Virus record (IMG/VR): IMGVR_UViG_3300001472_000084
Coordinates: 1,802 to 31,875 of that record
DNA length: 30,074 nucleotides
Reading direction: 5' to 3' (one strand)
Source of the DNA: a virus
A model generated the notes under the pieces. The model did no database searches, had not been told where the DNA came from, and worked only from the letters and a program-made list of their open reading frames with translations. The stretch's first letter is position 1; the number at the start of each line of letters is the position of its first letter. Positions 11,641-30,074 of the stretch are shown here, piece after piece. Made by a program: the position numbers and the translations under genes.

Positions 11641-12563
11641 TGGCATATATATCACAATACGAATACTACGAAAATAACGGCAAGAATCCTGAAGGAGCTA
11701 ATTGGGGTTCATATCAGTACGTTAGCCTATACGATATAGTGAATAACTATATGTTGATGTATACAGGTAACCACTCGATGATTAATAACGAGGAAAGATA
11801 TAAGGTTTTATTTCACGCAAAGCGTGGTATACAGGAGCTTAACTATGATGCATTCAAAGAGATAAAGGTATTAGAGCTTAACGTATCTGACAACCTTAGA
11901 TTTGTCTTACCTCCTGACTTTGTAAATTGGGTTCGAATATCCTTGTACAAGGATGGTATACTTAGGCCTATGACAGAGAATATTCAGGTTAATAGTGCAG
12001 GGTCATACCTTCAAGATAATAACTCTAAGATTCTTTTCGACCAAGACGGGAATATATTGAAGCCTGAGTATTCAAACCTAGACCTAGATAGAATTAGCGG
12101 AACTAAGAAGAGTATATATCTAAATGAGGCTAGTCAATTTCACGGTATGTTAGGATACAATTGCGATGGATGTTGGTACTTTGATTGTGGTATAGGAGCG
12201 TTTTATGCTCTTAACACAGAGACAGCTAATGCTAACCCTACCTTTAGAATAGATAGACAGGCAGGTGTAATAAATTTTGACTCATCAATGTCTGACGAGA
12301 AGTGCATACTTGAGTATGTCTCTGATGGTATGGAGAATGGTGATGACACCTTGGTAAGTGTCAACAAACTTTTTGAGGATTATATCTATGCATACATAAC
12401 ATATGCACTACAGAACTCCAAGTATGGTGTTCAGGAGTATATGATAAATAGAGCTAAAAGAAACAAGTCAGCTTTATTACGTAATGCAAAGATTAGAATG
12501 AGTAATATTCATCCCGGTAGGTTACTACAGAACCTTAGAGGTCGGGACAAATGGATTAAATAA
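11640..12563 (+). CDS. Connector/ring-type head-tail protein 2
   Basis: A 307-aa protein. Helical N-terminus with YVSLYDIVNNYMLMYTG (about 27-43) and an INNEERYKVLFHAKRGIQEL helix (about 49-68), then strand DAFKEIKVLELNVSDNLRF and the loop VLPPDFVNWVRISLY (about 92-106). The helix bundle followed by a beta-sandwich with a PPDFVNWVRI-type motif recurs in Bacteroidota-phage tail-adaptor genes to my recollection. A C-terminal helical, basic part (INRAKRNKSALLRNAKIRM) ends RGRDKWIK. It is coupled to its neighbours on both sides: a 1-nt overlap before, and no gap after. A tail-tube or gatekeeper role between portal and nozzle is likely, inferred from position. Confidence 0.66.
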   Translation: MAYISQYEYYENNGKNPEGANWGSYQYVSLYDIVNNYMLMYTGNHSMINNEERYKVLFHAKRGIQELNYDAFKEIKVLELNVSDNLRFVLPPDFVNWVRISLYKDGILRPMTENIQVNSAGSYLQDNNSKILFDQDGNILKPEYSNLDLDRISGTKKSIYLNEASQFHGMLGYNCDGCWYFDCGIGAFYALNTETANANPTFRIDRQAGVINFDSSMSDEKCILEYVSDGMENGDDTLVSVNKLFEDYIYAYITYALQNSKYGVQEYMINRAKRNKSALLRNAKIRMSNIHPGRLLQNLRGRDKWIK

Positions 12564-15500
12564 ATGGCGAATTTAAAAAGACACTTTATAGCAGGCAAGA
12601 TGAATAAGTCTGTAGACGAAAGACTTGTGCCTAACGGTGAGTATATTGATGCATTAAATGTAAGGCTTGGTTCTACAGAGGCTTCAGAGATAGGCTCCGT
12701 TGAGAACTCAAAGGGTAATACTAAGATTACAACATTAGAGTACAACGGAACAGCCTTGAGCGATAGTGCAAGGTGTATAGGTGTCCTTGATGATAGTGCT
12801 AACGAGACACTGTATTGGCTTGTACACGACCCGGCATTTACTGTTGGTGCAACAAATAAGCTTGACTTAATAGTGTCAATAGACTTGAAGACTGATGCGT
12901 TAGTTTATCACGTTATTAGTATTCGTAATGGCTCAACATCAGATACAACGCTAAACTTTAATCCAACTTTTTTAGTTACAGGTATTGACTTGGTGGAGGA
13001 CCAACTGTTCTTTACCGATGACTTTAACCCACCTAGGGTTATAAATGTTAAGAGAAACTATGCAAACCCTATTGCAAACGTAGACCAATTTACTGATGAG
13101 GAACTTCTTGTAATTAAGAAGCCACCTGTAGAGGCACCGACATTTACATTGAACCTTACTCCGGGAGAGGAGGACTACCTAGAGGAGCGATTCATATGCT
13201 TTGGATACAGGTATAAATATGCAGACAACCAATACTCAGCGACCTCACAGTTCTCTGAGCCTGCATTTACCCCTAAGCCTTTTTTCTTTTCTCCCGAATC
13301 ACTTCTTAACGAAGGTATGGTAAACTCAAAGAATCAAGCTATAATAACATACAACTCAGGTGGCCCACTTGTCGTTGGTGTTGATTTATTATTTAAAGAG
13401 TCAGGGAATAGTATTATAAAGGTGATACAGAAGCTTGACAAGCAGCAGGAGGGTCTTGCAGATAACACTGACTATACATTTTCTTTTAACAGTAACAAGA
13501 TATTCACAGTCTTACCTGACTCACAGCTACTAAGGTTGTTTGATAATGTACCACGTTTTGCACAGGCACAGACAGTTATGGGTAATAGGTTGGTATATGG
13601 TAACTACGTTGATGGATATGACCTAACCGATAAGAATGGAAGCTTAACAAGGCTAGAGTATCAAGCTGATTTATTATCAAATGAAATTAGCATTGAGTCT
13701 TTAGGTACTTCTTTAAATCCATTCACCTTTAATGTTGATGGAGCTGTTACTATTGCTGATAGTAAGATTATTATTGATTTTACAGGAATACAGCTAACAT
13801 CAGGAAGTGTAATATCATTTTTTTTAAATATAACTCACGATTCTTTTTCAAGCAACACTCCTACCTCTAACTCCGGTGTAACGCCTGTAGCTTATGCATA
13901 TGTTTTGCCTCAAGATTTTGCATCAATACACGACCTCGCAATAAGTACCGACTTTAAAAATTCAATAGGAACTTCTCTTCCATCCGGTACTATACTTCCT
14001 GTATATGACGCATCCAATCCAACTTCCTGTAATGGAGTAACATTTACAGATAGTATGAATTGTAATATAGAAAATGTACTTACAGGAGTATCACCGAATC
14101 CAACGTGGACTAAATATGTATCAGGACAAACATCTGCTATTGCATCACCCGCTACCCCAAGTGCAGGTGAGGGTATGATTATAGGTTCTTCTATTGGTAG
14201 TAATAATTTGGAGTTAACTATAATAGCAATGAGAAGGGTAAATAATGTAGGCGGCCCCACAGCAAATGCCTTTGAATATTTTAAAATTGAGAATCCGCAA
14301 GTAACAATAGCGTCATCTCCATCTGCATTAAGCCTTCATAGTAATAGAAACTATGAGGTAGGCATCATATATATGGATGAGTTTAATAGGTCAACCACAG
14401 CATTAGTTAGTGAGTTTAATTCTGTTAACATTCCTTGTGGTAATGCACACCTTCAGAATAGGATTAAGGTAACAATACCCCCTCAGCAGTTGGCACCCTC
14501 TTTTGCAACACGATACAAGTTCTGTCTTAAGCCTGATAGAGATGGTTATGAAACTATATATTCTAACATTTATTTTACAAATCCTACTACATCATATACT
14601 TTCTTTTTAATTGATGGAGAAAATGCTCAGAAGGTTGAAGAGGGCTCAAGATTAATTGTTAAAAAAGATTCAAATGGTTATGCCTCCACTTGTAAATATG
14701 CAACCGTTCTTGAAAAAGCTTCTCAAGTGCAAGATTTCTTTACATTAGCAGATGTAACAATACCTGCGGGTGTATATATGAAAATACTAGCTAGAGATTT
14801 TTCTGCAGTATTACCTGAAAATTCATTTATTTCTCCGGGTATTGAAGTAACAGTTTCAGATTTTACTACTTGGCCTACACAAGTATACCACGGATTAAGT
14901 GGAGGAACAGGCTCTTCATCATCAAGTGCAGGTTCACCTCCTTATGGATTAACTATCCCTTCGGGAACAAATATAAGATTTAGAGCAGAGTACCTAATGG
15001 CGGGTGTAGGAGGAAACAATAATATGTTAATAGACTTGCAGTTTATATCTCCAAATAATTACAATACTATAATAGAATGGTTCAATGATAATAACATAGA
15101 TGATATATTTCAGTCACAAAAACAAATAATAGAAGAAGCCTCACCCGCAAATCCTATTACTTTAAGTAGAGCCCCTGACACAAATGCTTCAACATCGAAC
15201 TATGGTCTTACATATAATAGTAGCGACCCTTCCAATGTTGAATATGTATGGTTCGAAGACTTAACTACAGGAGAAATAAGGTTTGTTACAAAAGGATTTA
15301 GGGCAACAGGGTTATCAGTTAGTCTTGTTACAACAGAATGGCAAATACTTAGAAGCGGAGCCGATGTGGTATTCGAGACCGAGCCTAGTGATTCACTACC
15401 TGACGTGTGGTTTGAGGGTGCTGACTCATATGCTATTGACCAAGCCACAGGATTCCATAGCGGGTCACCCGCTGCAGGTGGGGGTCAAAACCAAAATGCA

Positions 15501-17006
15501 ACACAGAATGGAATTGTTGTTACTGACTTTGGTAACTGCTACGCATTTGGTAATGGCGTAGAGAGCTTCCGAATCCGTGACTCAATAAAGGGCAAGGCAT
15601 TCAGTCTAGGTGAGAGAGCTTTCTCTACATCTGCTGAGGACTATCAGGAGGCTGATAGGTTTGCATCGCTTACATACAGTGGTGTGTTTAACACTGAGAC
15701 AAATGTCAATAACCTAAATGAATTTAATCTTGGGCTACTAAACTTCAAGAACCTTGAGGAGGTGTTCGGTCCCATACAGATTATATCAGGAAGAGAGACG
15801 GACATACTCACACTACAGGAGGATAAGATATCATACGTACAGTCAGGAAAGAATATTCTATCTGACGCTGCGGGTGCTAGTGCAATAACATCAGTGCCTG
15901 AAGTTTTAGGTAAACAGGTAGCAAGGGTTGAGGAGTATGGCATCAGTCAGAACCCTGAGAGCTTTGTGCAGTATGGATTCAATAAGTTCTTTACCGACTC
16001 TAAGCGTGGAGCATTGATACAGCTACGAGGCTCAGGAACTAGCGAGCAACTTAGTGTAATCTCAGAGATTGGTATGCGTTCCTTCTTTAGAAACTTATTT
16101 ATTGGTAGTGGTAACACTCAGAAGCTTGGAGCCTTTGACCCATATATGAATGAGTTTGTTATCAGCTCAAATGACATCGCTCTACCTGTAGAACCTGTAG
16201 TATTTAACTGTGGTGTAACAAGAACAGTAAATGTATCTTCTGATGGTTCAATAGTACCTCCAACTACATTCGCTGTTAACTTCGGTGAGAATGTTGGTAA
16301 CTGCACAATATCATATAGTGTAACAGCACTTTCAGCAGGGGACTCTGTTCAGATTTCTCAGTCGTATACAGGTACGTCAACATTAGTTACAAGTCCAAGT
16401 TCGGGAACATTGGTGTTTACTAAAAGCACTACACTACCTACAAACGGTAATATAGTAATTACAGCTATTCCTGCAGTTGTAGGAGGAAAAGCTACAGCTA
16501 CAGTTGAGCTTACAGTAGGTTGTCCTGAAGCAAAACAATTAACACTAGTTGAGATATCTATAACTGACCCTGCAGACTCAGGTAAGTTTATTCATAACCA
16601 ATATAATTGGGTTAGCGGAGCATACACTTCACCTTCTCACGTTAAACAGATTGCATTTAGGACATTAGGTTCAGCACCGGGTCCATTTGTCATTGCTGAC
16701 TATAGTCAAGCTACAGCCTTCCAAGGAGGAGGTGTAATACCTGCAGATGGTTCTAGGGTTGATATTACAAGTAATGCTATACCACCAAGTGATAATTATA
16801 CTTTCCCTTCTACAGGAAATAGATTGATGTTCTTGAGAAGTAGCACCCTGTACCCTAATACTGTAACGGGAATTAATAATCTACTAGCAGCAGCTACTGA
16901 TGTAACTCCATCACCAATAGTGTTACCTACGGTTACAGGAACATTTGTGATGCCTAGTGGCAGCAACAATGACTATCTATATATTATTTACGATTACTAT
17001 TCATAA
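12564..17006 (+). CDS. Tail nozzle/hub-like protein, 1480 aa
   Basis: A very long beta-rich virion protein. It begins KRHFIAGKMNKSVDERLVPN with GEYIDALNVR close behind, an opening typical of tail nozzle/stabilisation proteins (P22 gp10- or T7 gp12-position proteins, crAss-like muzzle). Repeated strands such as NYEVGIIYMDEFNRST (about 596-611) fit a beta-propeller body. A Gly/Ser linker (GGTGSSSSSAG) lies near 780-790. LGAFDPYMNEFVIS (about 1189-1202) closes the core; residues about 1213-1322 look like an Ig-like domain with two terminal Cys (CGVTRTV, TVGCPEA), followed by a separate 155-residue C-terminal beta domain ending in tyrosines. The ATG directly follows the previous stop. Base composition shifts to A/T-ending codons in roughly 13690-15330. 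Assigned by N-terminal motif, size and context. Confidence 0.74.
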   Translation: MANLKRHFIAGKMNKSVDERLVPNGEYIDALNVRLGSTEASEIGSVENSKGNTKITTLEYNGTALSDSARCIGVLDDSANETLYWLVHDPAFTVGATNKLDLIVSIDLKTDALVYHVISIRNGSTSDTTLNFNPTFLVTGIDLVEDQLFFTDDFNPPRVINVKRNYANPIANVDQFTDEELLVIKKPPVEAPTFTLNLTPGEEDYLEERFICFGYRYKYADNQYSATSQFSEPAFTPKPFFFSPESLLNEGMVNSKNQAIITYNSGGPLVVGVDLLFKESGNSIIKVIQKLDKQQEGLADNTDYTFSFNSNKIFTVLPDSQLLRLFDNVPRFAQAQTVMGNRLVYGNYVDGYDLTDKNGSLTRLEYQADLLSNEISIESLGTSLNPFTFNVDGAVTIADSKIIIDFTGIQLTSGSVISFFLNITHDSFSSNTPTSNSGVTPVAYAYVLPQDFASIHDLAISTDFKNSIGTSLPSGTILPVYDASNPTSCNGVTFTDSMNCNIENVLTGVSPNPTWTKYVSGQTSAIASPATPSAGEGMIIGSSIGSNNLELTIIAMRRVNNVGGPTANAFEYFKIENPQVTIASSPSALSLHSNRNYEVGIIYMDEFNRSTTALVSEFNSVNIPCGNAHLQNRIKVTIPPQQLAPSFATRYKFCLKPDRDGYETIYSNIYFTNPTTSYTFFLIDGENAQKVEEGSRLIVKKDSNGYASTCKYATVLEKASQVQDFFTLADVTIPAGVYMKILARDFSAVLPENSFISPGIEVTVSDFTTWPTQVYHGLSGGTGSSSSSAGSPPYGLTIPSGTNIRFRAEYLMAGVGGNNNMLIDLQFISPNNYNTIIEWFNDNNIDDIFQSQKQIIEEASPANPITLSRAPDTNASTSNYGLTYNSSDPSNVEYVWFEDLTTGEIRFVTKGFRATGLSVSLVTTEWQILRSGADVVFETEPSDSLPDVWFEGADSYAIDQATGFHSGSPAAGGGQNQNATQNGIVVTDFGNCYAFGNGVESFRIRDSIKGKAFSLGERAFSTSAEDYQEADRFASLTYSGVFNTETNVNNLNEFNLGLLNFKNLEEVFGPIQIISGRETDILTLQEDKISYVQSGKNILSDAAGASAITSVPEVLGKQVARVEEYGISQNPESFVQYGFNKFFTDSKRGALIQLRGSGTSEQLSVISEIGMRSFFRNLFIGSGNTQKLGAFDPYMNEFVISSNDIALPVEPVVFNCGVTRTVNVSSDGSIVPPTTFAVNFGENVGNCTISYSVTALSAGDSVQISQSYTGTSTLVTSPSSGTLVFTKSTTLPTNGNIVITAIPAVVGGKATATVELTVGCPEAKQLTLVEISITDPADSGKFIHNQYNWVSGAYTSPSHVKQIAFRTLGSAPGPFVIADYSQATAFQGGGVIPADGSRVDITSNAIPPSDNYTFPSTGNRLMFLRSSTLYPNTVTGINNLLAAATDVTPSPIVLPTVTGTFVMPSGSNNDYLYIIYDYYS

Positions 17007-17009
17007 GAT

Positions 17010-18023
17010 ATGGCAGGAATTACAGGAAATCATACGCTTACATACAGTGAATCCACAAAGGGATTCCCATCGTTCTATTCATATTTTCCGGATATGATGA
17101 TAGGTATGAACAACTACCTATACTCATTCAAGGGTGGTGACTTATATCGTCATAACACAAATGAGACTAGAAACAATTACTATGGTGTTCAATATAACTC
17201 AACAATAACAAGTGTAATAAATGAGAGCCCACTAGAGAACAAGATATTTAAGACAATATCTTTAGAGTCAGACGCAGCGTGGTCAGGAACATTTACATCC
17301 GACCAACAGACAACAGGAGAGATTAGTGCAGCGTGGTTTGTAAAGAAGGAAGGGGCTTGGTATGCGTTTATGAGAAATACAGGAGCAACACCTGCAGCAG
17401 CAGCGGAATACCCACTGCGTTCCTTAAATGGTATCAGTACATCAACAAGCGTAAACTCAGCGGCACCTGCAGCGGTAGAGGTAAACTTTAATATCAACAC
17501 ATCTATTGGTAGTATACTGAGCGTTGGTGATATACTGTATTTTATATCTTCACCTATTGGTACCAACTCAACATCAGGGACTACATTAACTGATGCTACA
17601 AAAAACTTTACTACTTTAGGTGTTCAACCGGGAGACACTGTAATTAACACGTCTGTTGTGCCAAACACATCAACAACGGTAAGTGTTGTAGGTACCACAA
17701 CTTTGACATTAAATACTAATATATTCCCTACAATTGGACAGAGCTACTCTATACCTGTTGGAGCAAACTCAACACCTACATTATGTGGTACGGTTACAGC
17801 AATAAACATTGACCTACCTGCAGGAACAAATCAGATTGTGGTAAACACCTCATCAGGTGCAATACCTTCGGGACAGGCAGATTACTTTATGTTTATAAAG
17901 AATCAGATTGCTGAGTCACACGGGATATTAGGGCACTACTGTGAGTTCAAACTCACCAATACAGACACCACTGCCACTGAGCTTTTTGCGGTGGAGACAG
18001 AGATGATGAAATCTTTCCCTTAA
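17010..18023 (+). CDS. Tail protein associated with the nozzle, 337 aa
   Basis: A beta-rich protein starting 4 nt after the nozzle gene. Residues about 20-50 carry a distinctive aromatic block (PSFYSYFPDMMIGMNNYLYS, then FKGGDLYRHNT and NNYYGV) that I recall next to, or fused with, nozzle proteins of Bacteroidota phages. Residues about 183-250 contain a Thr-rich domain with LTDATKNF, GVQPGDTVINTSVVPNT, VVGTTTLTLNTNIF and GQSYSIPVG, matching the same-order segment in the 317-aa connector protein. The C-terminal 50 residues (SHGILGHYCEFKLTNTDTT, AVETEMMKSFP) look compact. It is the last gene before the ejection-module promoter. Probably part of the tail tip or nozzle, but without a proven family. 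Confidence 0.65.
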   Translation: MAGITGNHTLTYSESTKGFPSFYSYFPDMMIGMNNYLYSFKGGDLYRHNTNETRNNYYGVQYNSTITSVINESPLENKIFKTISLESDAAWSGTFTSDQQTTGEISAAWFVKKEGAWYAFMRNTGATPAAAAEYPLRSLNGISTSTSVNSAAPAAVEVNFNINTSIGSILSVGDILYFISSPIGTNSTSGTTLTDATKNFTTLGVQPGDTVINTSVVPNTSTTVSVVGTTTLTLNTNIFPTIGQSYSIPVGANSTPTLCGTVTAINIDLPAGTNQIVVNTSSGAIPSGQADYFMFIKNQIAESHGILGHYCEFKLTNTDTTATELFAVETEMMKSFP

Positions 18024-18054: not shown

Positions 18055-18789
18055 ATGCCCGTACTAGCAGCGATTGGTCTAGCGACCACAGCGATATCAG
18101 CAGGTGCATCATTTGTGCAAGCTAACAGACAGAAGAAGATGATGGAGAAAGCCAATGCCGAAGCGGCAAAGGCTATGAAGGAGGCTCGTAAGAGACTTGA
18201 TGTAAATGTATATGACGCACTAACAATCAGCGACACCCCATACGAGAGACAGCGTGAGATGGCAAATGCACAGACTCAGCAGATGATGACAGGCTTTCAA
18301 GAGCTTGGTGTTCAAGGTATGCGTGGTGCTACTGCAGCATTAGCTCAGGGTCAACAGATGCAGGGACAGATTGCTGACGCTAAGACTCAAAGGCTAGAGC
18401 AACTAGAGCAGATGCAAGCTGCTGAGGAAGGGAGGCTAAGAGATATAAACGTACAGCTTGACCTTCAAGAGGTTGAGGGAGCACAGCTTGCAGCAAGAGA
18501 TGCTGAGCAAGCTAGACAAGCGGCACTGCAAAAGGGGATAGAGAGTGGTATAAGTGCAGTAGGTCAGATAGCCGGAATGCCTGAGCTATATAAGCAGGAC
18601 AAATCCGGAGATACATTGGCTAAGTTTCGTCAAGACACTCAAGGGCAAAGAAATCTTAGTATGGATTTAGCGACAGGCAGACCTATACCAACATCAATGC
18701 CTAATATTACAAGCCTAAATGCAGCTTCTCTATATGAAAATCCATTATTACAACAGAGTGCGAATTTAGGACTAACAATACCACAATAA
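18055..18789 (+). CDS. Internal virion (ejection) protein, gp14-like
   Basis: A 244-aa protein with a hydrophobic N-terminus (PVLAAIGLATTAISAGASF, residues 2-20) followed by a basic stretch NRQKK and about 150 residues of Ala/Gln/Glu-rich helix (for example AAEEGRLRDINVQLDLQEVE), then a low-complexity tail. One membrane-prone N-terminal helix plus a long Ala/Gln coiled coil is the plan of small podovirus ejection proteins such as T7 gp14, which are released into the host outer membrane to start a DNA conduit. It is first of three genes behind the 18030 promoter and overlaps the next by 1 nt (TAATG). No sequence-level homology to T7 gp14 is claimed; the role is by architecture and order. Confidence 0.62.
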   Translation: MPVLAAIGLATTAISAGASFVQANRQKKMMEKANAEAAKAMKEARKRLDVNVYDALTISDTPYERQREMANAQTQQMMTGFQELGVQGMRGATAALAQGQQMQGQIADAKTQRLEQLEQMQAAEEGRLRDINVQLDLQEVEGAQLAARDAEQARQAALQKGIESGISAVGQIAGMPELYKQDKSGDTLAKFRQDTQGQRNLSMDLATGRPIPTSMPNITSLNAASLYENPLLQQSANLGLTIPQ

Positions 18790-20270
18790 TGGCAACATAC
18801 TACGGATATGCAGAGAGGAATGCTGAGGACCAAATAGATTGGAATGCTATAGGTAAGTCAATGAATGACACCCTATTGGCTGAGCAGAAGAGAAGAGATG
18901 AACTAAAGGCTCAGATTGATAAGGACTCAGTTGATTTTGGTGAGACACTATCTAATTACCCTGAAGGAAATCATCAGGGTATGGTTGACTCATCTATAAA
19001 CTATGCCTCAGACATTCAGAGCTATCAGCTACTACAACTAAGACTACTTAAGTCAGGAAAGATTAAGCTAAGGGATTATATTAGAAACAGAGAGAACCTA
19101 GTTCAGGGAACTAAGCAATACTACGGTATAATGGAGAAGTATAATGCTAAGTTCGATGAGTTTATGAAGCTTAAGGATGAGGGTAAGACCGGTGCTAGGC
19201 AGGCTTATCTATTAGCAGAGGTAGAGGGTTTTGGTAACCTTGCTAATACAAGACCATATATAAATCCTACCACAGGAGAAATAAGCATTGGTAAGCAGAT
19301 GTTGAAATACCCGAGCGAGCCATACGATGCGGTTTACAATCCGTATACATCACAGATGGGTTCTAAACCTGCAGACTTCAAGACCACACAGCAGTTAGAG
19401 TTTTCATTATTAGGACCACAGATGTCTTACGACTCAAATGTAGCTATTGACGAAACAGTAGAGAGGTTGGGTGCAGATTTCCAAACACTTTCAAAGTCCG
19501 GAAGTTCATCCACAAAGATTACAGACATTACAGAGAACCCCAACTTTGAGGCAGCAATAAGAAACTATTACAATAGTTATTTCGAATCTAACCCTAACAA
19601 CGCAGCAGACTTCCTTACTGACTTTATAATGCGGAGAGATGTGAACGATGTAGCTGTGCCTATAAGCTACGTAGATGACCCTAGCAAGTTGTTAGCTGAC
19701 CCAACAAAGCCTTATAACAAAAAAACTAATCCATATGTCGGATTGATGATGAAGCCTGACCCTGCACAGCCGGGTGGTGGTAGAATGGTTGCAGATATGG
19801 ACTCAGAGAGTGGTAAGGAGCTGAAAGAGTTTGGATATGAAAAGTTCAAAGAGACAGTGGAAGCACAGCTAAAAAAGAAGATTGAGTATCAGAGAGGGTT
19901 TCAATCTAGAGCTCCAATAGGTGGTTCAGGTTCTACAGACAAAGAGCTTAATGACTTCTATCAAAGAGAGCTTCAAAAAATATTTAGCATAGGCACGCTT
20001 CCATCAGGAGAGAGTAAACAATATATTTCTCGGGATAATTTATTTGAGTTTGCGGCTAAGATGAATGTACCTATTACAGAGGTAGAAGGGAAGTATGAAG
20101 GAGACCCTAACCGTTTACAAGTAGGAGATTTGAAATTACCATTAGGTGCAGATAATACAAAAATATTACAGGCTCTTGAATCTCAAGTAAGCACAGCTAA
20201 TTTAAAGGCAGCTAAAATGAAGTTGGGCTCACAAGCCGAGGGTGGAAACTCAATGGAGGTATTTAATTAG
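18789..20270 (+). CDS. Internal virion (ejection) protein, gp15-like position
   Basis: A 493-aa soluble, charged protein between the small membrane-prone protein and the giant protein. It begins MATYYGYAERNAEDQIDWNA, then long helices (about 25-120), a motif ARQAYLLAEVEGFGNLANTR (about 137-156), and PYINPTTGEISIGKQM after it. The middle contains mixed strands and helices (TQQLEFSLLGPQMSYDSN at about 199-216), and the C-terminus is Lys/Glu-rich. No membrane span or enzyme motif is visible. In T7-like phages the middle gene of the ejection trio (gp15) forms the periplasmic tunnel; the same gene order suggests an equivalent role here, but this is inference. It starts on a TAATG overlap and ends 8 nt before the next start. 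Confidence 0.58.
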   Translation: MATYYGYAERNAEDQIDWNAIGKSMNDTLLAEQKRRDELKAQIDKDSVDFGETLSNYPEGNHQGMVDSSINYASDIQSYQLLQLRLLKSGKIKLRDYIRNRENLVQGTKQYYGIMEKYNAKFDEFMKLKDEGKTGARQAYLLAEVEGFGNLANTRPYINPTTGEISIGKQMLKYPSEPYDAVYNPYTSQMGSKPADFKTTQQLEFSLLGPQMSYDSNVAIDETVERLGADFQTLSKSGSSSTKITDITENPNFEAAIRNYYNSYFESNPNNAADFLTDFIMRRDVNDVAVPISYVDDPSKLLADPTKPYNKKTNPYVGLMMKPDPAQPGGGRMVADMDSESGKELKEFGYEKFKETVEAQLKKKIEYQRGFQSRAPIGGSGSTDKELNDFYQRELQKIFSIGTLPSGESKQYISRDNLFEFAAKMNVPITEVEGKYEGDPNRLQVGDLKLPLGADNTKILQALESQVSTANLKAAKMKLGSQAEGGNSMEVFN

Positions 20271-20278
20271 AAAAGTAA

Positions 20279-23200
20279 ATGAACGAAGAAGCATTACAGC
20301 AGTTATACTCTCTAGCGAGAGGAGAGGGGTACTCTAAATCTTTTGAAGACTTTAAAGTTTTGATGGGGTCTAATGAAGATGCAATCAACAATATGTATAA
20401 TGTTGCTCAAAATGAGGGCTACCGAAAAGACATCAATCAATTTAAGACCCTTGTTGGTTTTGGAGGCGGTGAGACTGTAGAGGTTGAGACTCAGGTACAG
20501 GAGGAAGTTCCTGTAAAAAAAAAAGAAGATACGGTATCTCCATCGGGACTTTCTTCATTGGGGTTACCATCGGTTACTGACATTATTGAGGAGAAGGTTG
20601 CCGGTCCTCAAGAGACTGTAGAGGTTGAGACTCAGGTACAGGAACCACAGGCTCCTCCATCATCAGACGGTGAAATAAAACAAAGCTTCTTAGACAGAGT
20701 AGGAGAAAAGGCACAAAGGTCTATAGATAAAAAAGAAGAGTATCAAACATACAATCCTGCTGTCGCACCTAAATCAGCTCCCACTGATTTCACAAAATAT
20801 AAAGACTATCTACCTGCAGGTGTCAAAGAGATACCTAATGCTCTTCAGGTTCTTAAAGGGGAGTACAACGCTGTAGTTCCATTCGACCAAGCAGAGTATG
20901 AAAAAAATCCTGAGGCTTATCAGATTATTTACAACAATAAGGTAAAGGATTACGAAGAGTATCTTAAGGGTGAGAAGGGATATATCAAGGGATATGATGG
21001 AAAGTATTACAGCTCAGATAAGTTCTCTCCGGAAACAATATTAGAGAAGGAGTTGGCTACACTTCGTTCTAGGGACGGTAACCTAATGGATTTAGGAGAT
21101 GAGGCTATCGTAGATAGAATATCTGAGAGACTAGGTAAGTTTGGTTTTGATGTAAAATATGACCCTGCAAAAATAAATATTCCTGAAGGTAGGCTAGGTT
21201 CTGCTATCACTATAACATCACAACACACGGGGAATAAGGTAGAAATTAACACCGATAGAATAAACTTTATCGACTTAATGAGAGGCGATGCTGACCGTGA
21301 GGACGCTCAAGAATTAGATAAACTAAATGCATTTGTTCTAAAGAACTTTGATGAAGATAAGGTCGAGGTAAAGGATTTACTTAAGGGATTGTCTGCTCAA
21401 GACAAGGCATCTATGGGTGCCGAAGCTGAGCGTAAGTATGAGACGCTGAGTGTAGGTAGAACAATCTCAGATGCTGAGGATATGGTTGTTGGTATCGACA
21501 AACAGATTGAGGCCGCCAATAAGATGTTGGAGGAGGCTCAGGCTATGCCTGACTACGAGGAGGCAGTTAGCACAAGTGTAGGCTCAGGAATGTTGATGGG
21601 TACAAGTCTTAGAGGAGTAAATAAAAAGAAAGCCTTAAAGCTTAAGCAGGCTAAGGCTCAGTTAGAATATCTTAATCAACAGAAGAAGGATGCTGATGCA
21701 TTACTAAAGTCAGCAGAGGAAGGTAAGCAGGTACAGGCTACAAAGTTTGCATCAAAGGTTCTTGGTGAGCAGATGATGACCGAGAGTGAGAGACTTGAGA
21801 ATGAAGCCAAGAAGCTTAGCTATACAAAAAAGGTTAGTGATGATATAGATTCTAGGCTTAAAGCAGCAGCAGAAAAAGCAAAGACAGCTACAACTCAGGA
21901 GGAAATAAATGATATAGCTGCTCAGAGTGAAGATGACGTAAAGACATATAACGAGCTCGCAAGGATTGCTACCGAGCAGCAAAACGACTACAGGTTGGAT
22001 GCTGAAAACCTACGAAAAGATGTAGGTCGAAAGATAATCCTTGACTCTCAGGTAGGTGGCCTTACAGGCTCTATAGTTAGAAGCTTAGCATCAGGTGTTG
22101 GTGGTTTAGCTGAGGGGGCTGTTGAAACATTTTTTGGAGACATATATGCCAACATAAATAATATGTTCTACGATGAGAATGAGGAGGGATATCTTACAGA
22201 TGCGGAACGTAAAAAAATAAAAGAAGATTCAATACAAGATGATTTAGTAGGATATGTAAGCGATAAGTTTGGTATCACTGATGAGGCAATGGAATCATAT
22301 CGAAAGGGCCTTAGCCTTCAGGATATGATAAAGAATGTTAAGGAAGGCAAGGAAGCTTTAGAGGGTAGCAATTGGTTTACTGAAGGTATCTACGGTATGA
22401 TTGAATCATTGCCTGCTATAGCTACATCTCTTATTACTCCTCAAGCTAGCATCTTATCCTTTGCTGCAATGGGTATCAATGGTCTCAACAAGGAGATGGA
22501 AAGCAATCCAATGTTTGCAAATGTATCTGAGAACGAGAAGCTATTACTTACCCTACCATACGGTGTTGTCATAGGTGTACTTGAAAACTATGGATTTAGA
22601 AATGCTCTTAACAACTCATCCCTTGTAAGTAAAATAATGTTCAAGGCTCTTAAAAAATCTAAGAAGACAACAAACAGAAACTTTAGAGAGCTTGTTGTTG
22701 ATGAGGTTGAAAATAAATTACAAAAAGGAGGATTACTTCTTGGTGCATCAACACTTTCAGAAATGGAAACCGGTGCTGCACAGCAGGCGGTAGAGGGATA
22801 TATGAAGGAGGCTTATGATGTAGCCAAGGGTATGGACTACTTCAAGCAGTCTATTGATTTCTTAGATGGCAAGTATATTACCAAAGAGTTTATAGACGAG
22901 GTATGGAAAGCAGGACTGTCAGAGGCAGTTGGAGGTTTTGCAATGGGAGCAATGCCTGCAATCTCACAGGCACGTAAGAATAATACTATAGCGGAGATTC
23001 CTATAGGAGCCTTTATGGTATATGAGAAGGCAATGCTAGACCCTGCAATCAGAAGGGCACAGACAATGAGAATTACCGAGCAGGTTGAGCTTGGATTAAA
23101 AACAAAAGAGCAAGCAGCCAAAGAGGTGCAGGACTACGACATAACAATCGGTCAACTTCGTGCTATACCTAAAGAGTTTGACTTGAAATCAAGACAGCAG

Positions 23201-26200
23201 ATACTTGCACTTGAAAGTCAGAAGAAGATACTAGAGGATAAGATTGAAGGCAAGAGTGTATTTACAACACGAGAGCAGCAGAGACAAATAAAGGTTCTTG
23301 AGGAACGTATCGAGGAGGTATCTGCAAATGCACAGAAGGGTGAGGCTAAGAAGTCAAACCAAGACATACTTACTGAGGAGTTTGTAAAGTCTGCCACCAA
23401 GGAAGAAGTAGTACCGGAGGTTGCAGTTGAGGAAGAGGTGACTACTGAGGAAGCACCTGTAGCTGAGGAGGTTGATGAAGAAGTTACTCAGGAGCAGCTA
23501 GATGAGGTTCGAGCTCTTGAAGAAGATGCACCTGTAGCTGAGACAGTGGTTGAGGAAGAGGTGACTACTGAGGAAGCACCTGTTATTAAAGAGGAACCAA
23601 AGACTGAGACTGCGGGTATGCGGTTATTTAAGAATGAAGAGAAGCTAAGGAAAGATAAAGAGTTACGTATTAAAGAGGCAGAGCAAAGGGCTGAAAAAAT
23701 AAAAAAAATTAAGGAGCTAGAAAAGTCTAAAAGAAAAGGACCTAGAAAGCTCTTAAAAGCCAAGGTCCCTGAGGTGACAAAGGAGCAAGAGGATAGTTAC
23801 AATAACAATGAGATATCTCAAGAGGAGATTAAAGATATTCTTAGGGGTGTATATGCCAAAAGGCAGACGAGAAGTGACGAGGTTTTCGCAAAGGTAAAGG
23901 AGAAGGATATGTCTCCTGAGCTTACAGCTTTTGAACGAAAGGTTCTTAAGGATAACTCAGAGCTTTATTCAGATATTATTGCAACCGAACCTATTAGCAC
24001 TTTGTTTGATAGGTTTACCGGAAAGCCAAAAGCAAAGACGGAGACAAAGGTTGAGACTCCGAAGAAGAAGGCTCCGAAGAAGGAAGCACCTAAAAAGGAG
24101 GTAAAGGTTGAGACACCTAAGAAGGAGACAGGTATTGACGCTAAGCTTCGTGCGATAGCGGTGAAGATGGACAAGGCTGCCAAGGAGAAGGTAAGCAGCA
24201 ATCTAACAAAGGCTGATAGGGAACTAATCAAGAAGAATACTAAACGATTCAATGAGATTAATGATGAGGTTAAGATGCCTACCACCACAGCAGATGGTAT
24301 CCGTAGTGCTATTAAGATGGTTGAGGATAGCTTCAAGGAGAAGGAGGCTAAGCTTAAGGAGCAGATAAAGACAATTGATGACCGGGTTACTGACAGGATG
24401 ACCAAGGATAAGGAACGTCAGAAGAAGAAGGATGAGCTGAGCAAGGCACGTAAGGAGAAGAACGCTAAGGTCAAAGAGCTGAAAGGTAAGCTCACTGATA
24501 TGGGTGCTAAGTTTAGACTCAGTGATGACGTAGCCACTGAAAGTCCTGAAGGGTTTATTACTGAGGATGATATAGTGGAAGGAATGAAGAAGCTTGGTCC
24601 TGTAGAAAAAGGATTCAAGATTCCTAGTGGCATTAAGGAAGGAGACGTTGACCCTATAGCACAGAGTAACTCTACAAAAAAGATTACTGATGCACAGGCA
24701 AAGAAGCTAGGCTTCAAGTCTGTAGCTGATATGCTTAAAAATATTCAAGAGTTCAATGACATACCTATGATAGTAGCAATGTCTGATGTGCTAGCATCAG
24801 GAGTTGTTAAAGATTCAATGGGTAATGATATGCAGGTTGATGGTGGTCTACTTTATAACGTGCTTGGTAGTAACACAGAGCTAGCTTGGGCAGGAGTAAA
24901 CGAGACGGGTGCCAATACTCAATATACTGAAGCCTTGGACTTATATCGTGCTAACAAGGAGTTGTTTGATAGACTATGGAAGGAAGGTAAGCTTCCACAG
25001 AACCACGTTCCGATGGTTGTTCTTAGGATGGGTAACTCTGCTGTAAATTCTAATGAGGCTATGTTTAGATATCTAGCACCATTAATCAAGAGCTTCCCTA
25101 AACAGAATCAAGATGAAGCATTCAGTGTCCTTATGGAATCTATTGAAGGTAAAAAGAATGTGTCTCAAGAAAACAAGTCGGGTAGAGATACCGTCAAGTC
25201 AGCCGAGCAGTTGGAAGAGGTTATTAATAAAAACAAGATAACAGATGTAGGTTCACTCTTTGATTTCATTGTTAAGGATGCAAAGAAAAGAGCGAAGGGT
25301 GACAGTAAAAATACTATACCGCTACCTACTAGAGCATTATTATTTGACCTTGTAGTATCTCCTACAGGTGTTAAGAAAGCTTCAAAGGGTGTAGCTAAGG
25401 CATTGATAAAGGACACACAGTCGGAGGGTCAGGAATTTTTGACTGATAAAATATTATCTGACATAGGAGAGACATCTATGATGGAGTCAGAGTCAGGAGA
25501 TGCGGTAGCAATAATGGGTGTCGATGTTATTAATGGTGGTGTTCGTAAAGCAAACCACAATAACTATGGCTTTGGTCCGAAGGGTAGACTGATTGCATTG
25601 ATTAAGAACCCTATGAATGGCTTAAACATTTTCCCTGAGTGGAGAGCTAAGGCGGTACGAGTATTTAAGAAGGATAAGAAAGGTGAGATGCCTACCCTTG
25701 AAAAAGTATTAAGACAGGTAGGAGGAGCATTCTTTATAGATAAAGCATTTAGAGGAGCTAGAGTTCAGACAGAGCAGTCAGACATAGATGTGATTTCAGG
25801 TAAGATGAGATTCGCATTTCCGGGTGTAAGTGTTTCCCAAACTCAGCAGGAGTTTGATGAGGCATTAAAGCAGGAGGGTATACGTACCGCTGAGTCGAAT
25901 GGGAATACTATCCTTGGTCTAACTAAGGACGGTAAGATATTCTTGAACCCATCTAGAAAGTCTTTGTCTACACCGATTCACGAGTTCGGTCACATATGGA
26001 TTGACTTCCTACGTTCAGATTCATCGAAAACAAAAGGAACTAAACTTCTAAAGAAGGGGCTTGAGTTGGTAGAGGGAACCAAAGCTTTAGAGAGTGCGAT
26101 TAAAAAGTATGGAGACAATGAGCTAGCTAGAGAGGAGGCGTTGGTTGAGCTTATGGGAACAAAGGGTGAGACCATAGCAAATGCAGCCAAGAGGGCTAAG

Positions 26201-29200
26201 TTTATTGAGTGGTTCAATGCATTCTTTAAGTACATAAAGGAGAATCTTACACGATTCAAAGATGTTAAGGTTAAGGACATCAAGGATATTTCACTTGAGG
26301 ACTTTGTTGACATAGGTCTTGCGGAACTATTCTCAGGTCAGGCAGTTGATAAAGATGCAGACGTGAAGTTCAAACCTGAGGAGGCCGCTACATCAGCCAA
26401 GGCTAGGATGCAGATGGAAGAGAAGGGTGTTGACCTGAAGGGTGACATTGAGAAGGTGGTTGCTAGAGCTAGAGACAAAAAGATACCTGAAAATGTTATC
26501 ATTGCATACCTGATGGAGGACAAGGGCTTCGATAGAAAGAAGGCGTTGGCTACCATCAAGCGGGTGAACAAAAATGACCTACGCTCTGCAATCAAGAACC
26601 TATTCGCTAGCGTTAAGGACATCACAAACATAAGCGAGCAGGAGGCTGAGCTAGTAAAGGAACTACTGAAGTATGACCGAGCAACCACTAGAGCAGACAA
26701 GGCAATACAGAAGAAGGCTAAGGAAGAACTTCTAGCACAGGTAAGGGTAATGGCTAGAGCATCTAAAGGAAAGATATCAGCGGCACAGCTATCAGCGGTT
26801 ATATCAAGGCTCACCCGGGTGAACCTTTCAAGGCAGTCTTCCATTGATGGTTTTGTAGACTATATGCGTAAGATATTTAGTAATGCTGACTACGCACAAA
26901 AGATTGTAGGTATTAAATCTAAAATCAAGCAGGCTAAAAAGAACATTAGAACCAAGGTTGGTATCGGTCAAGATGGATTGACTTATGAGCTTGAGAATCT
27001 ATTTAACATTGACCCATTACTTATTCCTGACGATGTGTTCAATCTTTTCACAATTGGCGATGTGTTCAATAAGTATGAGAAGATTGTAACATCCTTCGGG
27101 TCAAGGAAGACTGTACTTTCACTACCCGAAGCGAGCGAATTAAAGAGTGATATCGCTGATATTAATGATGCCCTAAATACACAAAACTCATTAGTGGGCG
27201 AGCTTACAGAAAGATTTAATTCATTTGAAGATAAAAAGATTACCAAGGATGGTAAGGTTGAATATGCCCCCACCGTTAAACGTATGCTTAAGGATAACAT
27301 AATCACTGAAGAAGAGTCCAAGCTTATGACTAAGTTCTCTAAGGAGATAAACCCTAGAGAAGAGAAGGAAGGTAAGAGCGAAGAGCAAAAGCAGAAAGAG
27401 ATAGAGGAGGAGAAGAAGGAGCTTATCCAAGAGGTAAAGGATTCAGACATAGATACAAGTGGTATCACCAATAGACTAGCTAAGCAGGTAGCTGAGTCAT
27501 TATCTGAGATGATAAAGACTGAGGCTATCAATGAGTTAAGTAATCCTCAGCTAAAGAATCTTATCAAGGCCATTGATAATATCAATAGCGGATACGTTAA
27601 CCACTACTCACAGCTAGCGTGGGAGAATCTTATGAGTACAAACTTTGCTAAGACAGCAACTGAGTCTGTCAATAAATCCAAGCCTTTAAAGACGAGCAGG
27701 TTTATTGCTAAGGTGAAAAGTATATTCACAGGAAAATCTGACATAACAACAATGATTGAGAGGACACCACTGTTCTATATGGATGCTGTACTAGGAGACT
27801 TTACAAGTAAAAAAATATTTGAATCTATTATAGAGAATCCTGCTCAAGCTATGTCAACATATCAAACAGATTTACAAAGGGTATATGACAAGTTAGAGGA
27901 TGCTGAAAGTAAATTAGCAAAGTCATTGATTAGTAATAGAGATGCAATTATTGAGTCTAAGTATAAGCAGATGGCTTATATGGTTCAACTTGAGCACGAG
28001 TCTAATGTTGATAATAAACAGACAAGACCCGCATCAGAAGTTATGAAGGCCACTATTACTAGGCTTGAAAGAACCAATCAAAAAGAGAACGCAAAGATAC
28101 TTAAAGACATTCTTGATAATGATAAATTCTCTACTGATGGAGAGATAGACTTGAATAAAATAAAGAAGAGCTTTAGTAGTGCTGAAAAGAATATGATTAA
28201 AGCTGTACAAGAAGTAAACGCTTCTTTAACAGAGAAGGCTGTGTTTACTGCAGCAATAATAAGAGGCGAAGCTATTGACCCACTTAATAATTACATACAT
28301 CAGCAGGTTCTTAGTGACCAAGGTTCGGTAGCTGACAACGTAGATAAGTTATCCGAGTCTTTTACAAACAACGCTAAGCCTTCAACAAAAGCAAAGAACT
28401 TAATCGAGCGTGTATCCAAGGTTAGTCCTATAAACTTTGACATCCTATCAGCCACTAAGCGTGGAGCTAAGATGACCCTTATGGACTTCCATTTGACCTC
28501 ACCACTTCGTGTGGCAAACAAAACCTTAAGCAAGATGAATGAAAGTATTCAGGAGTCAGGTGAACAGAGAGAAATATTTGAGGGCATAAAAGAGGGATAC
28601 AACCAAGCTATAAAGGATGTTATTGGAGATAACTTTACTAGCAGTGATATATCAACAGAGTTATTTGATTATGTAGCTAAGACAGGATACCGAACTATGC
28701 TTGTAGGCTTAGGGCGTATGACAAGTGAATTTTTAAGCAACGTACTGTTTACTATAAGTAATCCAAACATTTTTATAAAAGGTGTTGGGTATGGTAAGAT
28801 GATGTTTTCAAGCGAGGGTTCTGAGATTATGAATAATGTTCGCAGTAAACAAACTCAAAGGTTATATGGCTCAGGGTTAAGTGGTAGATTAGTTGACCCG
28901 TCAATACTTTCTAAGAGAGGTGGTACTGCAAGAGCTCAGAAAGCTAGAGGTAAAAGTTTATTGGGACGTATAAGAACCAAACTTGGACAGGCAGGAAGTC
29001 TATTAAGTTTATATCCTAAAGCAATTGAGACAGGTGCAGATACTATTATATCCTCTCCTGATAAAATGGTTACTAGACCTATATGGTTTGGAACTTTTGC
29101 TACTGAGTTTAAGAAGTTGACGGGGCAGGAAGTTGACTTCAATAAGATTGCAGAGAATGACGCTGAGTATATGTCTAAGTATAAAAAGGAAATAGAGAAA

Positions 29201-30074
29201 GCAAAGAGAGAGGCTGATACTAAGTCTGTTGAAATAGGAGCTACAGATAATCCTTTGATGGGTATTCTTAAAAACAAAAAGAGACCGGGTGAGCCATTAA
29301 GAAATGCTTGGAAAAATTTTAATGGATTTATGCAGAGGTTTTTGATATTTGAATTTAATGCATTTAGAAAAGGATTATATGCAGCTATAGGTAGAGGTGA
29401 AATATCTAAGCTAAAAGGAGGTATGTTAATGGCTGCTGTTGTTGGTCGTATGACAGCATATACATTGCTTACAGGAACGCTTACAAATATGGTGGCTTCA
29501 ACTTTAGGTCAAGCTTTAGGAGCTGCAGGTGATGATGACGATGAGGAAGATAAGAAAGGAACAACTTCTCAAAAGGTTGCTAGAGCTGTCGCTTCTACAA
29601 CAACATCACTTTTATTAGGAAGAAGTTTTGGTGCAGGTATTAAAGCTATTCAGAACAGATTCATTGAGTTAGCTAACAAGGAGTACGGAGATGATATAGG
29701 ATTTAGAGATGGTGAATACGATAGATATAACAATTCAATTGCATTTGATATATTTCCGGAGTCAAAATCATACAAGCAACCCGACCCTATATCTGACCTT
29801 GTACCAAAAATGTTGGGACCTTACTCTAATATAGGTGGATTGATTCGGGTTGGAGCGAGAGCCTACGGTCCTGAGATAGGATACGGGGAGAAAAAGAAGA
29901 CTGAAGAAGGTGAGGCTAGAAGAGAAAAGGAAAAGGATAGATTTCTTTTTGAAGTAGGAGGAAACCTAGGATTGGTTCCTCTTTACAAGGAGCTTAGGAA
30001 AGCTATGATGAAAGACATTTACAAAGATTTAGGTAAGAAGAAAAAATCATCGGGGAAAAGCTCAAGACCTAAGA
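20279..30074 (+). CDS. Giant polyvalent virion protein with zincin peptidase motif (right end cut off)
   Basis: An open frame of at least 3265 codons running off the window edge; I read it in frame at eleven places without a stop. In order: two 30-residue repeats (1-60, GY..s...FK.L.G pattern); hydrophobic segments between about 590 and 900 (SLPAIATSLI near 710, LPYGVVIGVLE near 760); Glu/Val-rich and Lys/Pro-rich linkers (about 1050-1105 and 1248-1283); a conserved-looking domain with YTEALDLYRANKELFDRLW (near 1550); a zinc-peptidase signature IHEFGHIW (H1901, E1902, H1905) with a candidate third-ligand glutamate in REEALVE (1951-1957); long helical regions; and a hydrophobic segment near 3048-3085 followed by DDDDEED. 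Multi-domain giants like this (large polyvalent proteins) are packaged and injected with phage DNA. Its place matches T7 gp16. The basic tail at the edge suggests the true C-terminus is close. Confidence 0.85.
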   Translation, partial: MNEEALQQLYSLARGEGYSKSFEDFKVLMGSNEDAINNMYNVAQNEGYRKDINQFKTLVGFGGGETVEVETQVQEEVPVKKKEDTVSPSGLSSLGLPSVTDIIEEKVAGPQETVEVETQVQEPQAPPSSDGEIKQSFLDRVGEKAQRSIDKKEEYQTYNPAVAPKSAPTDFTKYKDYLPAGVKEIPNALQVLKGEYNAVVPFDQAEYEKNPEAYQIIYNNKVKDYEEYLKGEKGYIKGYDGKYYSSDKFSPETILEKELATLRSRDGNLMDLGDEAIVDRISERLGKFGFDVKYDPAKINIPEGRLGSAITITSQHTGNKVEINTDRINFIDLMRGDADREDAQELDKLNAFVLKNFDEDKVEVKDLLKGLSAQDKASMGAEAERKYETLSVGRTISDAEDMVVGIDKQIEAANKMLEEAQAMPDYEEAVSTSVGSGMLMGTSLRGVNKKKALKLKQAKAQLEYLNQQKKDADALLKSAEEGKQVQATKFASKVLGEQMMTESERLENEAKKLSYTKKVSDDIDSRLKAAAEKAKTATTQEEINDIAAQSEDDVKTYNELARIATEQQNDYRLDAENLRKDVGRKIILDSQVGGLTGSIVRSLASGVGGLAEGAVETFFGDIYANINNMFYDENEEGYLTDAERKKIKEDSIQDDLVGYVSDKFGITDEAMESYRKGLSLQDMIKNVKEGKEALEGSNWFTEGIYGMIESLPAIATSLITPQASILSFAAMGINGLNKEMESNPMFANVSENEKLLLTLPYGVVIGVLENYGFRNALNNSSLVSKIMFKALKKSKKTTNRNFRELVVDEVENKLQKGGLLLGASTLSEMETGAAQQAVEGYMKEAYDVAKGMDYFKQSIDFLDGKYITKEFIDEVWKAGLSEAVGGFAMGAMPAISQARKNNTIAEIPIGAFMVYEKAMLDPAIRRAQTMRITEQVELGLKTKEQAAKEVQDYDITIGQLRAIPKEFDLKSRQQILALESQKKILEDKIEGKSVFTTREQQRQIKVLEERIEEVSANAQKGEAKKSNQDILTEEFVKSATKEEVVPEVAVEEEVTTEEAPVAEEVDEEVTQEQLDEVRALEEDAPVAETVVEEEVTTEEAPVIKEEPKTETAGMRLFKNEEKLRKDKELRIKEAEQRAEKIKKIKELEKSKRKGPRKLLKAKVPEVTKEQEDSYNNNEISQEEIKDILRGVYAKRQTRSDEVFAKVKEKDMSPELTAFERKVLKDNSELYSDIIATEPISTLFDRFTGKPKAKTETKVETPKKKAPKKEAPKKEVKVETPKKETGIDAKLRAIAVKMDKAAKEKVSSNLTKADRELIKKNTKRFNEINDEVKMPTTTADGIRSAIKMVEDSFKEKEAKLKEQIKTIDDRVTDRMTKDKERQKKKDELSKARKEKNAKVKELKGKLTDMGAKFRLSDDVATESPEGFITEDDIVEGMKKLGPVEKGFKIPSGIKEGDVDPIAQSNSTKKITDAQAKKLGFKSVADMLKNIQEFNDIPMIVAMSDVLASGVVKDSMGNDMQVDGGLLYNVLGSNTELAWAGVNETGANTQYTEALDLYRANKELFDRLWKEGKLPQNHVPMVVLRMGNSAVNSNEAMFRYLAPLIKSFPKQNQDEAFSVLMESIEGKKNVSQENKSGRDTVKSAEQLEEVINKNKITDVGSLFDFIVKDAKKRAKGDSKNTIPLPTRALLFDLVVSPTGVKKASKGVAKALIKDTQSEGQEFLTDKILSDIGETSMMESESGDAVAIMGVDVINGGVRKANHNNYGFGPKGRLIALIKNPMNGLNIFPEWRAKAVRVFKKDKKGEMPTLEKVLRQVGGAFFIDKAFRGARVQTEQSDIDVISGKMRFAFPGVSVSQTQQEFDEALKQEGIRTAESNGNTILGLTKDGKIFLNPSRKSLSTPIHEFGHIWIDFLRSDSSKTKGTKLLKKGLELVEGTKALESAIKKYGDNELAREEALVELMGTKGETIANAAKRAKFIEWFNAFFKYIKENLTRFKDVKVKDIKDISLEDFVDIGLAELFSGQAVDKDADVKFKPEEAATSAKARMQMEEKGVDLKGDIEKVVARARDKKIPENVIIAYLMEDKGFDRKKALATIKRVNKNDLRSAIKNLFASVKDITNISEQEAELVKELLKYDRATTRADKAIQKKAKEELLAQVRVMARASKGKISAAQLSAVISRLTRVNLSRQSSIDGFVDYMRKIFSNADYAQKIVGIKSKIKQAKKNIRTKVGIGQDGLTYELENLFNIDPLLIPDDVFNLFTIGDVFNKYEKIVTSFGSRKTVLSLPEASELKSDIADINDALNTQNSLVGELTERFNSFEDKKITKDGKVEYAPTVKRMLKDNIITEEESKLMTKFSKEINPREEKEGKSEEQKQKEIEEEKKELIQEVKDSDIDTSGITNRLAKQVAESLSEMIKTEAINELSNPQLKNLIKAIDNINSGYVNHYSQLAWENLMSTNFAKTATESVNKSKPLKTSRFIAKVKSIFTGKSDITTMIERTPLFYMDAVLGDFTSKKIFESIIENPAQAMSTYQTDLQRVYDKLEDAESKLAKSLISNRDAIIESKYKQMAYMVQLEHESNVDNKQTRPASEVMKATITRLERTNQKENAKILKDILDNDKFSTDGEIDLNKIKKSFSSAEKNMIKAVQEVNASLTEKAVFTAAIIRGEAIDPLNNYIHQQVLSDQGSVADNVDKLSESFTNNAKPSTKAKNLIERVSKVSPINFDILSATKRGAKMTLMDFHLTSPLRVANKTLSKMNESIQESGEQREIFEGIKEGYNQAIKDVIGDNFTSSDISTELFDYVAKTGYRTMLVGLGRMTSEFLSNVLFTISNPNIFIKGVGYGKMMFSSEGSEIMNNVRSKQTQRLYGSGLSGRLVDPSILSKRGGTARAQKARGKSLLGRIRTKLGQAGSLLSLYPKAIETGADTIISSPDKMVTRPIWFGTFATEFKKLTGQEVDFNKIAENDAEYMSKYKKEIEKAKREADTKSVEIGATDNPLMGILKNKKRPGEPLRNAWKNFNGFMQRFLIFEFNAFRKGLYAAIGRGEISKLKGGMLMAAVVGRMTAYTLLTGTLTNMVASTLGQALGAAGDDDDEEDKKGTTSQKVARAVASTTTSLLLGRSFGAGIKAIQNRFIELANKEYGDDIGFRDGEYDRYNNSIAFDIFPESKSYKQPDPISDLVPKMLGPYSNIGGLIRVGARAYGPEIGYGEKKKTEEGEARREKEKDRFLFEVGGNLGLVPLYKELRKAMMKDIYKDLGKKKKSSGKSSRPK
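20471..20502 (+). repeat. 32-nt direct repeat, copy 1 (copy 2 at 20612-20643)
   Basis: The 32-base stretch is repeated exactly at 20612-20643, 141 nt later. That spacing is a multiple of three, so both copies encode ETVEVETQVQE. It lies in the Glu/Val/Pro-rich linker after the N-terminal repeats of the giant protein. Exact identity at the DNA level, including wobble bases, points to a recent in-frame duplication or to recombination. Confidence 0.85.
20515..20524 (+). other. A10 homopolymer inside a coding region (possible slippage site)
   Basis: Ten consecutive A residues lie inside codons 79-82 of the giant protein gene (V-K-K-K-E). It is the longest coding homopolymer I saw in the window. 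Gain of one A would reach a stop about 19 codons later and loss of one about 32 codons later. Such runs allow transcriptional slippage or phase variation, but could equally be a plain lysine run in an A-rich genome. Confidence 0.5.
23426..23460 (+). repeat. 35-nt direct repeat, copy 1 (copy 2 at 23549-23583)
   Basis: The 35-base sequence recurs exactly at 23549-23583, 123 nt apart (a multiple of three), encoding VEEEVTTEEAP twice. A further shared piece, gcacctgtagctgag, occurs at 23453-23467 and 23528-23542. The region is an acidic, probably unstructured linker between the membrane-prone and helical parts of the giant protein. Confidence 0.85.

Follow-up and report, generated by a model that had tools for sequence, protein, structure and literature searches.

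The last gene of a phage structural operon, carried on the 30,074-nucleotide stretch of DNA analysed here (the window), encodes a giant protein whose domain Z is, as judged from sequence conservation and a predicted fold, a genuine gluzincin-type zinc peptidase domain, with H1901, E1902, H1905 and E1953 as its putative active-site residues and catalysis as a prediction. Relative to Pfam, NCBIfam and PHROGs, Z appears from its sequence to be an uncatalogued zincin subfamily. Considering its relatives and its position in the gene block, the giant is probably virion cargo on which the zinc peptidase is a variable module.

Phage context and extent of the giant protein

This is a phage with a crAss-like tail, similar to Elemovirus, Pachyviridae and Pervagoviridae. 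Genes for TerL, portal, MCP-like, ring-like and muzzle proteins lie upstream of the giant, whose operon also includes those for TerL and portal, and TerL is 76% identical to that of the uncultured phage ctfjg026, 46% to Elemovirus and 33-38% to Pachyviridae/Pervagoviridae. Given these related phages, the hosts are probably Bacteroidota. The muzzle (window 12564-18023) is coded by two genes here, whereas phi38:1/phi40:1 and elemovirus each use a single gene; the two parts found here align to one and the same protein of phi38:1/phi40:1. The features discussed below are the following.

12564..17006, + strand: large part of the crAss-like muzzle, 1,480 aa (phrog_14478, 9e-215; phi40:1-type gp97, 3e-70)
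17010..18023, + strand: separate gene for the C-terminal domain of the crAss-like muzzle (PF25729 crAss_MUZ_C, 4e-17; matches the C terminus of phi40:1-type gp97)
18055..18789, + strand: first gene of the putative cargo/ejection block, 244 aa (distant relationship to elemoE gp20, which in turn is related to the MS/MS-detected phi40:1 gp99)
18789..20270, + strand: the block's second gene, 493 aa (in synteny with phi40:1 gp100, detected by MS/MS; related to ctfjg026 12353-14287)
20279..30074, + strand: giant ORF, predicted virion cargo/ejection protein (location from relatives), 3,265 codons up to the contig end, last gene of the structural operon
20279..20728, + strand: N-terminal region, aa 1-150, opening with two degenerate ~36-residue LYxxAxxxGYxxxxxxFxxLx repeats; common to about 19 of 83 relatives
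21983..23344, + strand: middle region, aa 569-1022, common to about 8 of 83 relatives; the most hydrophobic stretch, without a clear transmembrane helix
24566..25813, + strand: partner domain P, aa 1430-1845, immediately N-terminal of the peptidase and confidently modelled jointly with it
25793..26428, + strand: predicted zinc metallopeptidase (zincin) domain Z, aa 1839-2050, from alignment, AlphaFold2 model and zincin structural matches; present in 83 relatives
25979..25993, + strand: HEFGH, residues 1901-1905, with predicted zinc ligands H1901 and H1905 and predicted catalytic base E1902
26135..26137, + strand: E1953, predicted third zinc ligand, on the next long helix
27416..30074, + strand: C-terminal module, aa 2380-3265 (phrog_32588, 2e-62)

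The giant ORF starts at ATG 20279, 8 bases 3' of the preceding gene, and runs without a stop to window base 30074, where the 31,875-base virus record finishes, in agreement with the original prediction of an open frame of more than 3,265 codons. A relative (L002) with 92% identity over the common C-terminal part terminates about 13 residues past the window end, so the giant protein should be about 3,278 aa long and is nearly complete, with about 13 C-terminal residues missing. The tandem repeats at its start (window 20279-20458) also begin the giants of several relatives, and a packaging signal is possible. Membrane-prone segments had been proposed along the protein, but the highest 19-residue Kyte-Doolittle mean is only 1.36, which does not support membrane helices. 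A single catalytic domain was recognisable in the giant protein, where a polyvalent protein combines several disparate activities. When the C-terminal or the partner region was searched as a single sequence, only 1-2 relatives were retrieved.

The case for a virion location comes from relatives. The window genes of 244, 493 and more than 3,265 aa match in order phi40:1 gp99, gp100 and gp101, all annotated from experimental MS/MS proteomics, and the syntenic last gene of phi18:3, gp123, is likewise annotated from MS/MS data. Elemovirus gp20 matches phi40:1 gp99 at 2e-31 and, weakly, the 244-aa protein of the window at 5e-4, and elemoE gp18 matches phi40:1 gp101 (5e-7), phi18:3 gp123 (2e-10) and the C terminus of the window giant. 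A direct profile match of this C terminus to phi40:1 gp101 or phi18:3 gp123 was not detected. The giant is the largest and last of a three-gene block (18055-18789, 18789-20270 and 20279-30074), an arrangement comparable with the ejection blocks of T7 and DEV (PMC10925440), although the lytic transglycosylase domain of the T7 gp16 N terminus gave no Pfam match in it. The idea of a packaged protein at a T7 gp16-like ejection position is thus upheld on homology and synteny with the MS/MS-detected proteins of phi40:1 and phi18:3. Such large proteins were described as cargo ejected before the DNA in the structure of crAss001 (PMC10172136) and in the N4-like phage DEV (PMC10925440). The two Cellulophaga phage giants, phi40:1 gp101 and phi18:3 gp123, are virion proteins from the last gene of the same block but lack HExxH, which indicates that a virion protein of this kind can acquire or lose the peptidase as a module.

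Conservation and predicted fold of domain Z

HEFGH is the sole HExxH in the giant protein, against 0.0024 expected from composition, a value this low because the protein contains only 9 His. The motif is at H1901, E1902 and H1905, as the original prediction had it, and the preceding strand (GKIFLNP, 1885) and the downstream REEALVE (1951) are also where they had been described. The third ligand had been sought in REEALVE, and the invariant Glu found there, E1953, 48 residues past H1905, is its predicted counterpart.

Our first search for relatives had IHEFGHIW among its patterns and all 80 relatives recovered carried HEFGH, a count that was set aside because the search used the motif and was circular. 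It was replaced by a search with a profile of the domain preceding the peptidase, which gave 53 loci, 52 of them extending into the peptidase, and 31 sequences at less than 90% identity. In this motif-unbiased set H1901, E1902 and E1953 were each kept in 30/31 sequences and H1905 in all 31, while the x positions of the motif varied (F/Y/M and G/A). HExxH is therefore under constraint in these 31 relatives, as in a gluzincin-type zinc metallopeptidase, and chance occurrence was rejected by the composition expectation together with this conservation. The expectation that homologues would keep HExxH accordingly stands for 30 of the 31 non-redundant relatives, but not for the syntenic Cellulophaga phage giants.

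The one exception, L127, reads VGQFGH in place of HEFGH and has lost both H and E. Its giant ORF (starting at 5903) has the altered site in the aa 1860 region and contains a second HExxH at aa 763 (HEAFH...EEMFVE). Gene breaks in L127, L038 and L040 may be sequence errors, the L127 case being ambiguous. Natural fission was rejected for L040 and L038 because the broken genes have no proper start codon, and L039, whose Z is near-identical to that of L040, is intact.

AlphaFold2 modelled the 212-residue Z domain from 47 sequences with a pLDDT of 90.5 and a pTM of 0.89. In the model, HExxH lies on helix 59-74 and the predicted third-ligand Glu (E115 in model numbering, E1953 in the protein) on a helix C-terminal to it, 109-151. 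Alignment against the PDB with VIA-align gave best chains that were mainly HExxH + Glu zinc peptidases, at middling Z scores of 5-6.3, from the lethal-factor type, Pro-Pro endopeptidases, PprI and ACE2; many rows are duplicate entries of one protein, and in a few the aligned part is the non-catalytic N domain of lethal or edema factor. The top alignment was to the lethal-factor type (Z 6.3, 134 residues, rmsd 4.3 A). Foldseek against the PDB returned nothing with an E below 2.7, zincins appearing only with VIA-align, and in BFVD the model matched giants of Gundel_1, elemovirus, crAss-like phages and phi17:2. The consistency of the matched families, despite middling Z scores, and the pLDDT point to a zincin fold. 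Lethal-factor (M34)/PPEP-type and PprI-type zincins are thus the closest structural counterparts of Z, but share 8-16% identity with it and give no PDB match at the sequence level. Profile searches and structure prediction, both called for by the original prediction, give Z a predicted zincin-type fold, and no sequence family of Pfam, NCBIfam, PHROGs or the PDB covers it; conservation and predicted fold support the zinc metallopeptidase originally proposed, with activity as a prediction.

The partner domain P (416 residues) matches no Pfam or NCBIfam family, and in the alignment of relatives its invariant residues are SNE and HxNY. A YTH-like structural match was weak (Z 5.6, within the background level stated by the tool) and was set aside for that reason, as was a match to an anti-CRISPR structure (E 0.041), a likely helical chance. 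P (window 24566-25813) could conceivably be a second active domain. It is found with Z in Z's own clade, and Z is central in very divergent giants.

Related giants and polyvalent proteins

Among cultured phages, gp74 of Tenacibaculum phage Gundel_1 (Pachyviridae), annotated as a 'structural protein', has the same Z domain with HEFGHLW (hhalign 99.9%), but is 2,482 aa long, lies directly upstream of the terminase gene and gave no P match. Elemovirus elemoE gp18, a 3,694-aa 'structural protein' at the same gene position, has a related C-terminal module and a related zincin with HEIFH (hhalign 96%); its peptidase is divergent and no P match was found. The first zincin of ctfjg026 (HEFGHW at 1615) was discarded as a Z homologue for want of a convincing profile match. 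In two relatives, L037 and L080, the peptidase-bearing protein stops 120-130 residues past Z, and a separate gene with its own ATG codes for the next large protein. A ferritin-family gene (PF00210) sits between the split giant genes (L037:9883-10374, 6e-23; L080:11086-11577, 1e-7) and may code for cargo. Giant ORFs with the Z domain also occur in genomes of the Bacteroidota Dyadobacter, Aquimarina, Runella, Spirosoma and Microscilla (L147-L151), probably as prophages; LPD3/LPD23 or another HExxH domain is present in some of them. A 2,645-residue giant of this phage type, with 65% identity in the peptidase domain, is encoded on a contig assigned to Aliivibrio (L146) that is probably misbinned phage DNA.

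Zincin-like metallopeptidases are the commonest domain of polyvalent proteins, for which Iyer et al. (2017) set out 12 clades and proposed autoprocessing or host targeting (PMC5512222). With 3,265 codons in a phage that has portal and terminase genes, the giant has the size and context of such a protein and, with its zincin domain, would fit the zincin-bearing group, the link to the domain network running via relatives only. A search for LPD-family domains had been proposed, and the Pfam search found none along the giant protein; the MPTase/LPD Pfam models gave no match in it and none among the matches listed for the Z domains of relatives. LPD23, LPD3 and DUF6782 do occur in relatives that share this Z domain. 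The MPTase prototype, aa 2130-2448 of the N4 virion RNA polymerase gp50 (PMC5512222), resembles Z in its HExxH with a downstream helix Glu, its lethal-factor-like fold and its place in a virion protein of more than 3,000 residues that is last in a small/medium/giant block (N4 gp52/gp51/gp50). Their hhalign alignment spans 133 columns with HExxH in register and is weak (probability 33%, pairwise P 5e-4). The two giants differ in that no RNA polymerase domain was recognised in ours (no Pfam or PHROGs match to a T7-like single-subunit RNAP domain) and in that the partner domain P is new.

Possible roles of the peptidase

The explanation we prefer, with a confidence just short of even, is that an injected zincin processes the giant itself or its partners; catalysis, timing and substrate are all predictions here. 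Of three cargo/ejection proteins in a crAss-tailed podovirus, the giant would be the last and largest; it would be packaged, pass through the tail as a threaded chain and enter along with the DNA. Z would then cut the giant chain or co-packaged partners and detach the C-terminal module from the N-terminal/partner-peptidase part. Synthesised and packaged as a single chain, the protein would in this way act as several. The genes split just behind the peptidase in L037 and L080 favour such processing. The splits imply that the modules can function unjoined, which suits, without proving, proteolytic separation of the fused form. Further support comes from P1 DdrB, which is processed before packaging, and from the autoprocessing proposed for these domains (PMC5512222). 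On the other hand, N4 virion RNAP, which has been studied better than any other analogue, is packaged uncut though it carries such a domain (PMC5512222), no cleavage site or product was seen for the giant protein, and the MS/MS-verified relatives that have no peptidase mean that processing cannot be universal. A bolder version, which we consider rather doubtful, is a self-cleaving virion polyprotein of crAss-tailed phages in which the new zincin subfamily, paired in its own clade with the new partner domain (possibly a YTH-like reader with a helical insert), would cut the ~3,300-residue chain after ejection to give parts that act separately.

The split genes bear also on a different role, the chief competitor and the leading idea of the original prediction, in which the injected peptidase would cleave host envelope-barrier, defence or regulatory proteins at entry; we regard this as possible but unlikely. 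L037 and L080 retain HExxH despite the split, which speaks against a domain that cuts only its own chain, since loss would then be expected. The module is also variable in the manner of an effector, since some relatives lack it and others have another HExxH domain besides, and secreted or injected proteases are among its best structural matches. However, host cleavage has no candidate target, and a single Z family central across very divergent giants, with a conserved P in its own clade, fits a built-in role equally well. Literature precedent, as we read it, leans at least equally to self-processing as to host cleavage (PMC5512222). An action during assembly, in which Z would trim scaffold or other cargo in the prohead or ready the giant for encapsidation and later be inert, has a low probability in our assessment: N4 vRNAP requires the region with its metallopeptidase domain to be encapsidated, and the cutting of P1 DdrB precedes packaging (PMC5512222), but related phages with homologous muzzle and cargo block do not have Z, making a general maturation role unlikely. 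That Z is catalytically dead or structural, its fold kept without protease function, is very improbable, for each of the four residues H, E, H and E persists in 30 or more of the 31 non-redundant sequences while neighbouring positions vary; L127, which keeps the fold with VGQFGH, would suit a dead zincin, yet has its second HExxH (HEAFH at 763).

Most giant virion proteins in crAss-related and flavobacterial phages bear the label 'structural protein', and a conserved catalytic site in one of them offers an activity that can be tested directly. Because cultured Gundel_1 and elemoviruses carry related domains, post-entry processing or host-protein cleavage can be tested in these phages. None of Pfam, NCBIfam and PHROGs contains the Z family, so that a model built for it would add an annotation to dozens of giant proteins of phages and prophages.
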